From: a virus
IMG/VR virus record: IMGVR_UViG_3300032278_000139
Coordinates: 1 to 21,325 of that record
Reading direction: 5' to 3' (one strand)
Length of the DNA stretch: 21,325 nucleotides
Each line of letters begins with the position of its first letter. Positions within the stretch are counted from its first letter, which is position 1. Below are positions 169 through 20,553 of the stretch, piece by piece. A model generated the notes under the pieces. It worked only from the letters and a program-made list of their open reading frames with translations, did not search any database and was not told where the DNA came from. The position numbers and the translations under genes were made by a program.

Positions 169-684
169 TTACATTGCTTTCATACTAAAATTGGACGTCG
201 GTGCATTACCCTGAACAAGTGCCATATTAAAATTTGCTAATGGTGCAATAAATGGACTATATATTTCAAATAAATTATCTTGTTCAACAAAAAATTCATA
301 TTCTTCTGATTCATTATGATTATCTGTTTTTGGTGCTATATCAATAAACTCCCCACCACCAGTAAAAGTAATTTTATCCTGTATACCAGATATTAGAGAA
401 CCGGCTGGTGTTTCTGGAGTCTCAACCATAATAAATGAATTCATAATTTCCTTTTGATTTAAAAATGATTCAAGTAGCGGCATATTTTCAATCACTCTAC
501 CTTCTAAATTACCTGGTTGTGTCGATTCCCACAACCCATAATCTATTTCGTCATCACCTAAAGCAAACTTTGTAATTACATACGAATCATCAGTTACTCC
601 TGAAAGTGCATCTGCTAAAAGTTCTCTACCTCTTTTAGTAAAGTGTGCTGTTACAGTTTGCCTTCTTTTATCTAAATATCCCAT
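169..684 (-). CDS. Tandem-paralogue virion protein, copy 4 (171 aa)
   Basis: This is one of four adjacent paralogues; I do not recognise a named family. The shared N-terminal module is MGYLDK, then FTKRGRELL, then ITKFALGDDEIDYGLW (about residues 40-55), then a conserved stretch with a proline (ENMPLLESF) and MNSF near residue 85. After that the sequence diverges, and the protein ends in PLANFNMALVQ and SNFSMKAM. I chose the start at 684 rather than the earlier ATG at 702, because the intervening codons contain the ribosome site AGAGGAAG and because all four paralogues then begin with MG[YF]. It lies one base from the end of copy 3. A structural tail or virion role is inferred from position behind the giant tail gene. 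No enzyme motif, signal peptide or membrane segment is visible. Confidence 0.85.
   Translation of the reverse strand: MGYLDKRRQTVTAHFTKRGRELLADALSGVTDDSYVITKFALGDDEIDYGLWESTQPGNLEGRVIENMPLLESFLNQKEIMNSFIMVETPETPAGSLISGIQDKITFTGGGEFIDIAPKTDNHNESEEYEFFVEQDNLFEIYSPFIAPLANFNMALVQGNAPTSNFSMKAM
536..579. repeat. 44-base block shared by paralogue copies 3 and 4 (copy at 536)
   Basis: Positions 536..579 and 945..988 are the same 44 bases with one mismatch (G at 550, A at 959). They encode the DDEIDYG core of the shared module. The flanking coding sequence is much less alike, which suggests recent exchange between the genes or strong selection on this segment. Confidence 0.85.
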
Positions 685-685
685 T

Positions 686-1096
686 TTATCTTCCTCTACC
701 ACGTCGACGTCTTGCTATCTGTCTTTCACGTATTACTTGTGCACTTACTCTCATACTAAAACTTGCAACTGGAGGAGATAAAATTGGTGATTCGGGTTCT
801 CCACCTCTAACTATCTCTCGTTTAAATAAAAAAGAATTCATAATTTCATTATCGGTGATTATAGGTTCTGTTACTGGTAGATTATCAATTATCGTACCAA
901 GCGGTCTAACAAAATTTGAACCACTTGGAGTCATGTCCCATAAACCATAATCTATTTCATCATCACCTAAAGCAAACTTTGTAATTACGTGTTCACCTTT
1001 TCTACTTTGACCAAAAACTGCTGTTCTTAAATATTCTCTACCTTTTTTAGTAAGTACAGCGTTAATACTTAAAGAACTTTTATCTATAAATCCCAT
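686..1096 (-). CDS. Tandem-paralogue virion protein, copy 3 (136 aa)
   Basis: This is the shortest member of the four-gene paralogue family. It has the shared module: MGFIDKSSLSINAVLTKKGR at the N-terminus, ITKFALGDDEIDYGLW in the middle, then a stretch ending DNLPVTEP and NEIMNSF. The C-terminus is short and ends VASFSMRVSAQ, followed by a strongly basic tail (RQIARRRRGRGR). That tail is absent from the other copies and could bind nucleic acid or an acidic partner; this is only a suggestion. The FSM/FNM ending resembles copy 4, so copies 3 and 4 form the short subfamily. The ribosome site is weak (ACGGAA), and translation may depend on coupling to copy 2, whose stop lies six bases upstream. 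A 44-base DNA block shared with copy 4 has a single mismatch. Confidence 0.85.
   Translation of the reverse strand: MGFIDKSSLSINAVLTKKGREYLRTAVFGQSRKGEHVITKFALGDDEIDYGLWDMTPSGSNFVRPLGTIIDNLPVTEPIITDNEIMNSFLFKREIVRGGEPESPILSPPVASFSMRVSAQVIRERQIARRRRGRGR
690..697 (-). promoter_or_regulatory. Ribosome binding site that decides the start at 684
   Basis: The minus strand reads AGAGGAAG five bases before ATG at 684. The site lies inside the extra codons of the longer reading frame starting at 702, so the shorter form is the real one. Confidence 0.75.
945..988. repeat. 44-base block shared by paralogue copies 3 and 4 (copy at 945)
   Basis: This is the partner of 536..579, in the same orientation with 43 of 44 bases identical, inside paralogue copy 3. 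Confidence 0.85.
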
Positions 1097-1101
1097 TTCC
1101 G

Positions 1102-1785
1102 TTATGTACCAATATCATACGATAAATCTTTATAATTAACTCTTACAGGAAGAACATAAACTGCTCCTGATTGTTGTCCAGTTATAATAATAGAAGTTTC
1201 TCTATATCCCATTGCGGCTGTAATAGCTTGGGTTCTTATAGTTACATCATTCGAAACTATTTTCTTACTTAATCTTCCAGTTTCTTCACCATATATAGCA
1301 CCAACATCAAAATTTACATTTTTTCCCTGACCCGTTCCTATATCTACTACATTTTGATTTAATACCAAAAAACTATACTTTTCTCCATCAAACACACCAC
1401 CACTACCGGCAGTATCTGGATTTATATAATGGTCATTAAATGTCCATTGTGGATCACTTTCTGGATTATATCCAGTTTCTAATGCATTAGTACGATTTAA
1501 ATAAGTTGGTGTTATATTTTCAATATCAGGTAAATTAATCAACTTATATTTCATAACTACCTCTGGATCAACATTTGGTTCTAACATTGGAGTACTTTCT
1601 AATACAGCACCATAATAATCATTTCCTTTCGGATGTGCATGATTCCATAAAGTATAATCTATCTCATCATCCGATAATGCAAATTTTGTAATACTAAAAT
1701 TACTACCAGGTCTTGCAAGATATTCTCTACCTTTTTTAGTAAGTACTGCGTTCAGTATATATGAAGTATTATTTATAAATCCCAT
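1102..1785 (-). CDS. Tandem-paralogue virion protein, copy 2 (227 aa)
   Basis: This is a long member of the paralogue family. The shared N-module is MGFINNTSYILNAVLTKKGR, then ITKFALSDDEIDYTLW, then YYGAVLESTPMLEP and VMKYKL. It differs from the other copies at two otherwise fixed positions (ALSDDE for ALGDDE, DYTLW for DYGLW). A middle region of about 100 residues is unlike the other copies. The C-terminus (TSIIITGQQSGAVYVLPVRV) is shared with copy 1 and looks like the closing strands of a beta-sandwich. The ribosome site is AGGAAG, six bases before the start. It is separated from copy 1 by only 21 bases, so the two are probably co-transcribed. The function is unknown; a virion structural or decorating protein is inferred from context. 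Confidence 0.85.
   Translation of the reverse strand: MGFINNTSYILNAVLTKKGREYLARPGSNFSITKFALSDDEIDYTLWNHAHPKGNDYYGAVLESTPMLEPNVDPEVVMKYKLINLPDIENITPTYLNRTNALETGYNPESDPQWTFNDHYINPDTAGSGGVFDGEKYSFLVLNQNVVDIGTGQGKNVNFDVGAIYGEETGRLSKKIVSNDVTIRTQAITAAMGYRETSIIITGQQSGAVYVLPVRVNYKDLSYDIGT
1158..1199. repeat. 42-base block shared by paralogue copies 1 and 2 (copy at 1158)
   Basis: Positions 1158..1199 and 1857..1898 match at 41 of 42 bases. They encode the common C-terminal segment around TSIIITGQ and SGAV. Confidence 0.85.
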
Positions 1786-1806
1786 CTTTACTTCCTAATT
1801 ATTATA

Positions 1807-2661
1807 TTAAACTTGTCCATCTCCTTGATCCCAAGTCACCGTAACATCATATTCAAAAACTGCTCCTGATTCTTGTCCAGTTATAATAATAGAAGTTTTA
1901 GCAGGTGAACTTGATTCAGAAATTCTCTTTGGATATAAAGAAAGTGCACCCCCACCTTCAGTATTAGAGTTAAATGCATTTTCATCATGACGGAATAAAC
2001 CAGTAGAAATTCTACAATTCGGTATTGTTTGTGAAAAATGTTGTGGTGATAATACAGATGGTAGCCATAAATCTTGCATCTCTTGATTGCTTGATTGGAG
2101 ACCATGAATATTTTCATTATAATCATAATCTGTTGGTGCTAAAACTGCAACTGCTGAATCTAATAAAGTTATTGTAAATAATTCATCAACATAATCGGCA
2201 TGGTGTGCGGTAAATTCAGCATTATCTATATGTTGAATACCAAATCGACATCCACTACCTAATGTTTTATTTACAAGTACATTTTCCCAGGTGAAAATTT
2301 TATTTCTATTATTAGCATTGGCAGTATCATACCAAAATCTACTTGTAAGTAATGTTGTATGAGTTGCATCATAAACTTGTAACTTCGCCATAGCTTCCGT
2401 TCCTTCATCTCGTGTTACGAGTTTATATTTCATAATCTCTGAAGGATCATTGAAAGGTTCAAGAGTAGGTAAATTATCTATTACTGCTCCATAAAAATCT
2501 GTTCCCTTTGTATGAGTTGTATCCCACAACCCATAATCTATTTCATCATCTCCGAGTGCGAATTGAGTAACCGTAAAGTTACCACCAGTTGACAAAATCT
2601 CTCGACCTTTCTTTGTCAATATGGCGTCTAATACTCTGCTCGAATTATTTAAATATCCCAT
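1807..2661 (-). CDS. Tandem-paralogue virion protein, copy 1 (284 aa)
   Basis: This is the longest and first-transcribed paralogue. The shared N-module is MGYLNNSSRVLDAILTKKGR, then VTQFALGDDEIDYGLW, then FYGAVIDNLPTLEPF and EIMKYKL. A divergent central region of about 150 residues follows, and the end (TSIIITGQESGAVFEYDVTV) is shared with copy 2. I placed the start at 2661, not at the upstream ATG at 2679, because AGGAGAA lies within those extra codons and the family start is MG[YF]. The gene follows a 118-base gap containing a promoter-like element, so it probably opens the second transcription unit. No catalytic motif or export signal is visible. A role as a tail or capsid decoration is an inference from its place next to baseplate genes. 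Confidence 0.85.
   Translation of the reverse strand: MGYLNNSSRVLDAILTKKGREILSTGGNFTVTQFALGDDEIDYGLWDTTHTKGTDFYGAVIDNLPTLEPFNDPSEIMKYKLVTRDEGTEAMAKLQVYDATHTTLLTSRFWYDTANANNRNKIFTWENVLVNKTLGSGCRFGIQHIDNAEFTAHHADYVDELFTITLLDSAVAVLAPTDYDYNENIHGLQSSNQEMQDLWLPSVLSPQHFSQTIPNCRISTGLFRHDENAFNSNTEGGGALSLYPKRISESSSPAKTSIIITGQESGAVFEYDVTVTWDQGDGQV
1857..1898. repeat. 42-base block shared by paralogue copies 1 and 2 (copy at 1857)
   Basis: This is the partner of 1158..1199, in the same orientation, inside the 3' end of paralogue copy 1. Confidence 0.85.
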
Positions 2662-2666
2662 TTTTA

Positions 2667-2673
2667 TTCTCCT
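2667..2673 (-). promoter_or_regulatory. Ribosome binding site that decides the start at 2661
   Basis: The minus strand reads AGGAGAA five bases before ATG at 2661. It lies inside the codons that would be added by starting at 2679, which rules out the longer form. Confidence 0.75.
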
Positions 2674-2733
2674 ATACAATACATTTTTTGGATCTTTATA
2701 AGATTTCTGAATTTGTTAAAACTTGTTATTCTT

Positions 2734-18372: not shown

Positions 18373-19682
18373 TACTTTCCTCCTACTTTAGGGCCGATAA
18401 TATGTGCAACATTAACACTTCTACTTTTGGGTTCATCTAATCTACCCTTTAATGTTTCTAAGGCACTCGCTAAGGCTCCTGCTGCTATATTTACTTGACT
18501 TAACGGAACTCCATTTCCAGGAAAAGTTGTTATACCTGTGGCTGGAATTAAATTATTAGCAAACTCTTTAATTATATCCATTAATGATGCTATAAGTTTC
18601 ATAGTATGATCTCCACCAAGAACTGGTTCTGTCGCATCTAAATCTCCTAACTTTAATTTACCTGCTGGATTATTAGGACTTAATCCATCAGATACATTAT
18701 CTTGATTTAATTGTAAAGAAATCATCTGATTAGCAGATATATCCACCGCCTCGTTAGCTGAAATAAGAACTTGACTTTTCTTTGCATTAAAAACTATTCT
18801 ATCAGAATTCAAAATTATTTGTTTTCCATCTAACTTTGGTACAAATCTATTTCTTAATTTACCATAAACTTCTTCTTTTAATGGAACTGTTTGATTAGTG
18901 GTTATCCAAATAGAAGAATCATCATTATTTATATCTTCAAATACTGGTCTGTTTGGGAAATCATCTAACTTCCATTTAAATTCTGATAATTTTGATGGAT
19001 CTCCCTGACCTGCTCTTATAATAATATTTGGTGAATCTGATTCGCCCATATCAGGGATTTCTTCTGAACTTTCACCTTCGAGTTTATACACTTTTGTAAT
19101 ATTGCTTCCAAATCTAATTGATTGACCAAACCTTCCGTTAAATGTAATATCACCTTCAAATGCTTGAATTTGTCTTATGTTACTATTTTTTACAAATTGA
19201 TATCTGGGTTCATCATCCACATGAAAAGGTTGCATTGGTAAACTATGATTACGGTCTGCTTTATTTAAATTTACAGAATTTTTTAAATTTAATTTTTGAG
19301 TATAATATTTTTTATCAAAATAAGTTGCAACAATAACATATTCTCCTGGTCTTGGATACTCTTTTATATTAGAATCTAAAGGTCTAACTTCTATCTGATC
19401 AGATATACCACTATTTTTCTTTGCCATTCTGACCTTTACCCAACCATATTTTGAATAATCAGGATAAATTTTGTTATCTCTTACAGTTACAGCCTTATTA
19501 CTTATTAAAGCATTTTCATCCAAATAAACTGCCAATACTTTTGCAGGTTCTAATTCATAAAAACGTTGCCCAGGAAGCGGAGTTCCATATTTTTTAAGTT
19601 CTTTGTGTATATCTTTTACTGACGCGACACCTTCCGAAATGGGTGAAACATTCCTAGCATCTGGTGGATCTAAATAGGACAT
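18372..19682 (-). CDS. Baseplate hub/spike protein, gp5-like OB-fold (436 aa)
   Basis: This protein is probably the central spike below the tail tube. Residues about 46-130 form an OB-fold like that of gp5/VgrG proteins: KVLAVYLD, then YGWVKVRMAKK, then YPRPGEYVIVATYFDKKYYT. Residues about 174-265 carry a segment known from marine T4-like phage structural proteins: EGDITFNGRFGQSIRFGSN and SPNIIIRAGQGDP. Residues 287-327 are short alternating strands (KQIILNSDRIVFNAKKSQVL, ISANEAVDISANQMISLQL), as in the gp5 C-terminal beta-helix. The end has a LGDLDATEPVLGGDHTMKLI segment. The T4 gp5 lysozyme domain is absent: the total is 436 aa against 575, and no catalytic Glu/Asp/Thr arrangement is visible. 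The start overlaps the preceding stop (TAATG), with an AAGGA ribosome site. The OB/spike call is good; exact equivalence to gp5 is inferred. Confidence 0.85.
   Translation of the reverse strand: MSYLDPPDARNVSPISEGVASVKDIHKELKKYGTPLPGQRFYELEPAKVLAVYLDENALISNKAVTVRDNKIYPDYSKYGWVKVRMAKKNSGISDQIEVRPLDSNIKEYPRPGEYVIVATYFDKKYYTQKLNLKNSVNLNKADRNHSLPMQPFHVDDEPRYQFVKNSNIRQIQAFEGDITFNGRFGQSIRFGSNITKVYKLEGESSEEIPDMGESDSPNIIIRAGQGDPSKLSEFKWKLDDFPNRPVFEDINNDDSSIWITTNQTVPLKEEVYGKLRNRFVPKLDGKQIILNSDRIVFNAKKSQVLISANEAVDISANQMISLQLNQDNVSDGLSPNNPAGKLKLGDLDATEPVLGGDHTMKLIASLMDIIKEFANNLIPATGITTFPGNGVPLSQVNIAAGALASALETLKGRLDEPKSRSVNVAHIIGPKVGGK
18379..18384 (-). promoter_or_regulatory. Strong ribosome binding site for the GTG start at 18372
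   Basis: The minus strand reads AGGAGG six bases before GTG at 18372, a perfect anti-16S match. It compensates for the GTG start and for the one-base overlap with the upstream stop (TAGTG). Confidence 0.8.
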
Positions 19683-20074
19683 TAATTTTCCTTAACTGAT
19701 TGTATATCTTCTGTTATTTCATCTGATTTCTTTTGAATGTCTACAACTACTTCATCAATGCTCGTTAGTAATTGTTCTTTTTCTTTTTCCGATAAACCGA
19801 ACTCTGATTCTGCACCACCTTTAGATTCGGCAGCAATTAATCGTTGAACAACGGTTGCCAACTTAACAAGTTGTTCATCATTCTTTACATTAATTTCCAA
19901 ATACTCTTTTATCATAGGAATTAACTGAACAGCCATATCCCCATCTTTGATAAAACTCGTAACTTCTTTTACTAACATTTCAAGTTGAGTTTTATTGTGT
20001 CTGGAATTATCATAAATGTCCTTGAATAATGATGATAGTGATTTACCTTCAAATAATTCGTAATCCTGACTCAT
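19682..20074 (-). CDS. Helical protein opening the baseplate operon (130 aa)
   Basis: This is an all-helical acidic protein that I do not recognise by name. Landmarks are FEGKSLSSLFKDIYDNSRHN at residues 8-27, then LIPMIKEYLEINVKNDEQLV near 51-70, LATVVQRLIAAES near 72-84, and a coiled-coil C-terminus (IDEVVVDIQKKSDEITEDIQ). It is the first gene of the long minus-strand unit, with a GAGGAAA ribosome site. Its stop overlaps the start of the spike gene, so the two are translationally coupled. A spike or hub assembly partner is a reasonable inference from that coupling. The candidate promoter lies about 45 bases upstream of its start. Confidence 0.8.
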   Translation of the reverse strand: MSQDYELFEGKSLSSLFKDIYDNSRHNKTQLEMLVKEVTSFIKDGDMAVQLIPMIKEYLEINVKNDEQLVKLATVVQRLIAAESKGGAESEFGLSEKEKEQLLTSIDEVVVDIQKKSDEITEDIQSVKEN

Positions 20075-20115: not shown

Positions 20116-20130
20116 CATAAATAAATATAA
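20116..20130 (-). promoter_or_regulatory. Candidate promoter of the baseplate operon (motif copy A)
   Basis: The minus strand reads TTATATTTATTTATG, exactly the same as the plus strand at 20182..20196. It points at the 130-aa gene, 42 bases upstream of its start. No clear -35 box is seen at the usual distance on this strand. Confidence 0.5.
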
Positions 20131-20181: not shown

Positions 20182-20196
20182 TTATATTTATTTATG
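20182..20196 (+). promoter_or_regulatory. Candidate promoter of the plus-strand membrane-protein gene (motif copy B)
   Basis: The plus strand reads TTATATTTATTTATG, facing the gene at 20281. A TTGCAA at 20158..20163 lies 18 bases upstream and could act as a -35 box with TTATAT as -10. The identical inverted copy at 20116..20130 makes the arrangement symmetrical and divergent. Confidence 0.5.
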
Positions 20197-20214
20197 TCGG
20201 AAGTTGATTTCGAC
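20196..20214 (+). promoter_or_regulatory. Leader hairpin 1 upstream of the plus-strand gene
   Basis: GTCGGAA and TTTCGAC form a 7-base-pair stem (one G-U pair) around a five-base loop. It begins right after the candidate promoter, so it would lie at or near the 5' end of the transcript, where such stems protect phage mRNAs from decay. Confidence 0.55.
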
Positions 20215-20243
20215 AACAGAAAACGGAAGTTAAAAATCCCTTT

Positions 20244-20268
20244 TTTGTTAAATGATAAGAATAACAAA
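20244..20268 (+). promoter_or_regulatory. Leader hairpin 2 next to the ribosome site
   Basis: TTTGTTA and TAACAAA form a 7-base-pair perfect stem with an 11-base loop. It ends two bases before the GGGAG ribosome site and could present or mask it. Confidence 0.5.
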
Positions 20269-20269
20269 C

Positions 20270-20274
20270 GGGAG
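20270..20274 (+). promoter_or_regulatory. Ribosome binding site that decides the start at 20281
   Basis: GGGAG lies six bases before ATG at 20281. The upstream in-frame ATG at 20194 has no ribosome site and falls inside the promoter/hairpin region, so the 73-residue form is preferred over a 102-residue one. Confidence 0.75.
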
Positions 20275-20280
20275 AAAACA

Positions 20281-20502
20281 ATGAAGGAAGTCATCGCATT
20301 AGTCAAAGGTTGGGTAGATGATATCGCTCAACTACTTGCCTCTTTCATAGCAATAGGAGCTGTAAGCGAAGTATTGTTCGGAAGTGGTATCTTTGGCGTA
20401 AATGTAATTGGTAACCTGACATCAATCATAAATCAGTTCGGCGAATCCGGTTTCGCTGGGTTAGTCGCATTGTTGGTGTTGGTGGGTTTATTCCGTAAAT
20501 AG
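20281..20502 (+). CDS. Small two-helix membrane protein, opposite strand, probably highly expressed (73 aa)
   Basis: This is the only plus-strand gene. It encodes a short N-terminal amphipathic part (KEVIALVKGWVDDI), a first hydrophobic helix at about residues 13-33 (IAQLLASFIAIGAVSEVLFG), a polar loop (NLTSIINQFGES), a second helix at about 56-71 (GFAGLVALLVLVGLF) and a basic end (RK). Codon choice differs from the neighbours: five of six Phe codons are TTC, and ATC, GTC, GGC and CTG codons appear, which suggests selection for high expression. It has its own candidate promoter, leader hairpins and terminator, so it is an independent unit. Size and topology fit a class II holin, but a holin is not usually made in bulk and no lysin gene is visible here. 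A virion-associated or membrane-remodelling protein is equally possible. The function is unknown. Confidence 0.85.
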   Translation: MKEVIALVKGWVDDIAQLLASFIAIGAVSEVLFGSGIFGVNVIGNLTSIINQFGESGFAGLVALLVLVGLFRK

Positions 20503-20518
20503 CTATTATCGGATAATG

Positions 20519-20548
20519 AAAAAGGGGAACTTTGTTCCCCTTTTTTTT
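20519..20548. terminator. Strong bidirectional rho-independent terminator
   Basis: AAAAAGGGGAAC, loop TTT, GTTCCCCTTTTT form a perfect 12-base-pair stem with A-tract on the left and T-tract on the right. It lies between the convergent genes ending at 20502 and 20554 and should stop transcription from both sides. Confidence 0.95.
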
Positions 20549-20553
20549 GCGGT

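Follow-up and report, generated by a model that had tools for sequence, protein, structure and literature searches.

Why does one small gene run against the direction of a long block of phage tail genes, with what looks like a transcription unit of its own, and what could its product do for the phage? The window in which this question arises, the whole 21,325-nucleotide stretch of the IMG/VR virus record IMGVR_UViG_3300032278_000139 that was analysed, carries near its end a plus-strand ORF of 73 codons plus stop. From the sequence alone, the original prediction had described a two-helix membrane protein preceded by its own promoter-like element, two leader hairpins and a good ribosome site, written in C-ending codons unlike those of its neighbours and closed by a perfect terminator, and had concluded on abundant, separately timed production, with a virion-membrane, envelope-remodelling or host-takeover protein to be considered in place of a conventional holin. 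The elements concerned are located in the window as follows, P2 being a bacterial protein described below:

19682 to 20074, minus strand: 130-aa gene heading the run of tail genes, divergent neighbour and synteny anchor (65/67 testable loci)
20120 to 20127, plus strand: upstream element AATAAATA, in relatives exactly 32 bp ahead of TATAAATA
20184 to 20192, plus strand: promoter-like element ATATTTATT, resembling a motif that precedes other phage genes (33/41 non-redundant loci)
20195 to 20215, plus strand: leader hairpin 1 (compensatory changes)
20216 to 20248, plus strand: leader hairpin 2, with an A-rich/U-rich stem and a U-run on its 3' side (98.6% of cells paired)
20270 to 20275, plus strand: ribosome-binding site GGGAGA, ahead of the ATG (ACGGGAGA conserved across related leaders)
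20281 to 20502, plus strand: CDS of the 73-aa P2-like small membrane protein (IMG/VR relatives, dN/dS, bacterial P2 homologues)
20519 to 20549, both strands: terminator AAAAAGGGGAAC-TTT-GTTCCCCTTTTTTTT, terminator-like in either direction (scan; 38/41 loci)

By its conservation, the ORF, translated as MKEVIALVKGWVDDIAQLLASFIAIGAVSEVLFGSGIFGVNVIGNLTSIINQFGESGFAGLVALLVLVGLFRK, is a real gene. Relatives of the protein occur in at least 444 IMG/VR stretches in one scan and in 403 with a second query, 31 aligned relatives share 68-97% identity with the window protein, and a dN/dS of about 0.1 over 662 pairs indicates purifying selection. A longer in-frame ORF begins at 20194; as this extension is variable or missing at other loci, 20281 is the likely start. 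No match was found among 50,697 named phage records, cultured relatives included, nor in Pfam, NCBIfam or PDB, and the best PHROG match is a weak one to a single unannotated PHROG (E = 0.0074). Hydropathy and helical moments predict an amphipathic helix, a transmembrane segment, a second amphipathic helix and a second transmembrane segment, with both transmembrane segments strongly hydrophobic and the C-terminus basic. The description as a two-helix protein is approximate, a low-confidence AlphaFold2 model (pLDDT 70, pTM 0.37) having three helices. None of the PDB or viral structures compared with this model reached significance (the best were GldL, E = 3.2, and His1 ORF24, E = 3.7), and the model is too weak to discriminate between the possible roles.

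The orientation seen in the window is maintained well beyond it. The convincing ORFs around the gene are minus-strand tail and baseplate genes, including those of gp25-like and gp6-like baseplate proteins and a tail fibre, and in about 80 homologous loci the gene likewise stands on the plus strand amid minus-strand genes. The comparison of homologues and their neighbours, which had been proposed as a check, revealed a fixed partner: anchored on the 130-aa gene, the 73-aa gene is found divergently upstream in 65 of the 67 loci with enough upstream sequence, at a spacing of 130-220 nt in all but two of these 65, and the two loci with the 130-aa gene alone are both partial contigs. Among the 93 ORFs of the 106-kb contig G005, no other opposite-strand gene is convincing, the one further candidate being a 64-aa ORF that looks spurious; in G002, a contig of 132 kb, all opposite-strand ORFs apart from this gene appear non-coding when judged by eye. 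Gp23 capsid genes in G002 and G264 and the gp25 and baseplate wedge genes of the window characterize the carriers as T4-like phages, and by its synteny the gene is nearly core in this marine T4-like group. A divergent contig (G012, L171:2409-2639) and locus L024 have the gene next to a tRNA-Ala gene instead of the usual 130-aa gene, and in G012 the relative still runs opposite to most genes. Elsewhere in the window, four adjacent paralogous ORFs of differing lengths with a common MGFINNTSYILNAVLTKKGREYL-like N-terminus (169-2679, minus strand) probably encode structural proteins, and the related phage contig G005 encodes a Nol-like carbamoyltransferase (L183:13865-15352; PHROG 1601, E = 1e-106).

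Outside this group, the Microcystis phage Mel-JY01, the Flavobacterium phage immuto (Immutovirus) and the uncultured phage LR756508 possess a related baseplate wedge gene (39-46% identity) and a related gp5-like gene (27-28% identity), but all three are devoid of the 73-aa gene. Its absence from the complete cultured Microcystis and Flavobacterium phages is consistent with a link between the gene and particular hosts.

Strong, self-contained expression of the gene is made plausible by its codons, its structured leader, the ribosome site and the terminator taken together. The fraction NNC/(NNC+NNT) is 0.50 for the 73-aa gene versus 0.04-0.20, around 0.10, in 13 neighbours (Fisher p = 3.5e-9), and the C-ending fraction exceeds that of the neighbours in 76/76 loci; the gene tops the ranking of 92 genes in G005, and it reaches 0.41 in G002, as compared with 0.28 for the Gp23 capsid gene, although in such a short and hydrophobic protein amino-acid composition may contribute to the C-richness. 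The two leader hairpins are real by comparative criteria, with helix 1 paired in 88.8% and helix 2 in 98.6% of the cells of 20 related leaders, and with 13 double-change cells, every one of them in helix 1, as compared with 4.1 for shuffles (0/500 as high). Across 41 non-redundant loci, folding stability exceeds that of shuffles in the leader (mean z -2.2) and does so by far more in the 3' region (mean z -4.4); a terminator-like hairpin follows the stop in 38 of these loci, compared with 11/205 shuffles. Since the scan detects the window terminator in both directions, shielding of the gene against antisense read-through may be a second role. A known RNA element in the leader was considered and rejected, since an Rfam scan of the loci returned tRNA and tmRNA only.

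Less of the predicted transcriptional independence withstood the comparison. The promoter-like element recurs, as ATATTTATT or ATAGTTATT immediately upstream of hairpin 1, in 33/41 non-redundant loci, but a sigma-70 reading was abandoned with a scan at chance level (19 found versus 24.9 expected). The T4 late promoter TATAAATA was absent from the intergenic gaps of G005, and the motif WTATTTATW fits better. This motif, which the upstream element resembles, also precedes other genes of these phages (17 occurrences on the coding versus 3 on the opposite strand, p = 0.0026), genes around the capsid gene among them. Of the abundant, separately timed production foreseen, the signals of strong expression are therefore retained, while separate timing is unsupported because the promoter-like motif resembles that of other genes of these phages. 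In at least 20 loci (L035, L041, L047, L078 and L154 among them), AATAAATA or TATAAATA elements are paired between the divergent genes at a spacing of exactly 32 bp, some three helical turns, and are possibly a regulator binding site. Many phage copies (ATTATCGGATAATG; window 20500-20520) and bacterial P2 genes (TCTCGTCGGA; 3' regions of L187-L200) share a TCGGA motif located between the stop codon and the terminator.

It is the kinship of the protein that gives the gene an interest different from the one first proposed, as it is, by alignment and profile search, a homologue of an uncharacterized bacterial membrane protein family. A search with the viral profile retrieved a chromosomal gene of the metagenome-assembled genome 'bacterium TMED198' (G010:C39, E = 4e-14), which adjoins a second related gene; the similarity is significant and spans the full length of the protein. 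The 70-aa P2 protein is matched in 21/23 genomes of the GTDB family of TMED198, and the P1/P2 family is present in 140/245 genomes of its GTDB phylum, mostly in two copies. In 35 bacterial loci that were read, P1 and P2 stand in tandem in nearly all while the flanking genes vary between lineages, which makes the pair itself the conserved unit. The homology of the 73-aa phage protein to chromosomal P2, an unannotated family of about 70 aa, is carried by residues common to both in the joint alignment (G26, the FGVI segment, G54 and the GLVA segment), the positions invariant in P1/P2 as well, and by the same amphipathic-transmembrane-amphipathic-transmembrane layout; the bacterial P2 leaders are structured too (mean z -2.9). 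Compared with P2 of TMED198, likewise of about 70 aa, the viral members are 41-47% identical. They differ from bacterial P2 in a two-residue insertion (FGVNVIGN) and an LFRK-type C-terminus, and the viral gene is single at all phage loci read, whereas the bacterial genes form a tandem pair.

All viral sequences group in a single clade of the tree (100/99), next to P2 (93/75), and the main P1 group is separate (100/98); those bacterial pairs that diverge most do not sort neatly into P1 and P2. A sister relationship of the viral clade to P2 has moderate support, and the long viral stem (1.12) allows a changed function. As a control, 184 other genomes from the class of NAT245, a metagenome-assembled genome labelled Gammaproteobacteria, contained divergent tandem pairs in two cases, L340 (G295) and L341 (G366), so that the family extends beyond one phylum and is rare in that class.

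Which bacteria are infected by these phages? A viral contig carrying the 73-aa gene was binned into TMED198, the chromosome of which has the P1-P2 pair, and homology and binning together suggest that the hosts are P1/P2-bearing bacteria. Judged from genome sizes, marine origin and a 16S site, TMED198 probably belongs to Marinimicrobia/SAR406 (Marinisomatota), and the hosts are thus probably Marinimicrobia; a literature search for TMED198 retrieved no paper. At what we take to be the FISH 16S probe site of this candidate phylum, two host 16S genes differ at one base, and the site was dropped as proof of the phylum. Phage contigs of the group encode tmRNA genes (Rfam RF00023, 84-102 bits; L071:17563-17975(-), L028:14261-14684(-) and L031:18506-18849(-)), with the ARAGORN tag GTQANLTYAYA in L031 and L035, and the bacterial tags in the order of TMED198 are mostly ADYGYAAAA-like; the similarity of the tags is insufficient, and they were rejected as proof of the host.

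Cyanophages carry host-derived membrane genes (reviewed in PMC5083919). Along these lines, the 73-aa protein is best read as a host-type membrane protein supplied during infection, with a probability that we put at roughly 0.45. An ancestral phage would have acquired the gene from its host, and the product, made in quantity during infection, would insert into the host inner membrane and join or replace the P1/P2 assembly, whose envelope function could in this way continue or be tuned while host expression fails. It would thereby act much as the small hli membrane proteins of cyanophages do. This reading draws on the homology to P2 with its shared residues and pattern, the invariant tandem pair and the position of the viral clade beside P2, on the structured leaders of both phage and host genes, the near-universal synteny and the C-rich codons, and on the absence of the gene from complete cultured relatives of other hosts together with the viral contig binned into TMED198.

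A host-takeover or envelope-remodelling role, as originally considered, is possible. In its specific form, a viral P2-like protein would poison, block or remodel a host P1/P2 assembly, for example to close an inner-membrane route used by competing phages; its relationship to one member of what is probably a two-protein assembly, a long stem followed by strict conservation and the strong-expression signals all agree with such host takeover or superinfection exclusion, but P1/P2 gave no sign of serving phage entry or defence and the pair looks more like a chromosomal unit kept stably across the phylum than like a defence locus, which makes it unlikely. Derivation from a host membrane protein could also have led to a holin which permeabilizes the inner membrane as infection ends. 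Although size, two hydrophobic segments and the basic C-terminus are those of small two-transmembrane holins and the gene is conserved in nearly all group members, the protein matches no holin family in Pfam, PHROGs or NCBIfam, the window neighbours scanned contain no lysin or other lysis match, the bacterial homologues are stably kept on chromosomes, and strand isolation and a hairpin leader are not hallmarks of holins. The reservation against a conventional holin is thus shared here, and we regard this function as rather improbable. A virion or tail/head assembly protein, suggested by the fixed place in the tail/baseplate region and by strong expression, is very improbable given the chromosomal homologues, the position beside a tRNA gene in G012 and the assembly of related tails without it by cultured relatives; a virion-membrane protein in particular found no specific support. 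That the family arose in viruses and then moved into bacterial chromosomes, as the sporadic divergent pairs in the class of NAT245 might indicate, is hardly to be expected with phylum-wide tandem pairs, a deep P1/P2 split, viruses confined to one clade on the P2 side, no P1 match in named phages and no P2 match on plasmids.

With a host-type membrane protein supplied during infection as the preferred reading, the 73-aa gene offers a putative sequence-based host link for a large and widespread group of uncultured marine phages, to which nothing named in the collection searched is closely related. At the same time it exposes a conserved, unannotated pair of small membrane proteins, in a large and mostly uncultured group of bacteria, that viruses found worth carrying, and the homology to P2 hints at an unstudied membrane function as well as at the hosts. 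Going further, P1/P2 might be an undescribed, phylum-wide conserved membrane complex that T4-like phages must supply or disarm if they are to replicate, with the phage copy a core infection gene marking hundreds of contigs as viruses of that phylum; this proposal is tentative and less likely than not.

Host-type genes in marine T4-like phages are already known, while the P1/P2-like family and its strand-isolated, near-universal placement in phage genomes are, as far as found, undescribed. The closest parallel in kind is hli of cyanophages, which encodes small host-derived membrane proteins. No sequence relation to hli is claimed, and the 73-aa gene is unlike it in being non-photosynthetic and in forming a strand-isolated unit; what both have in common is that a gene for a small host-type membrane protein has become widespread in marine T4-like phages.
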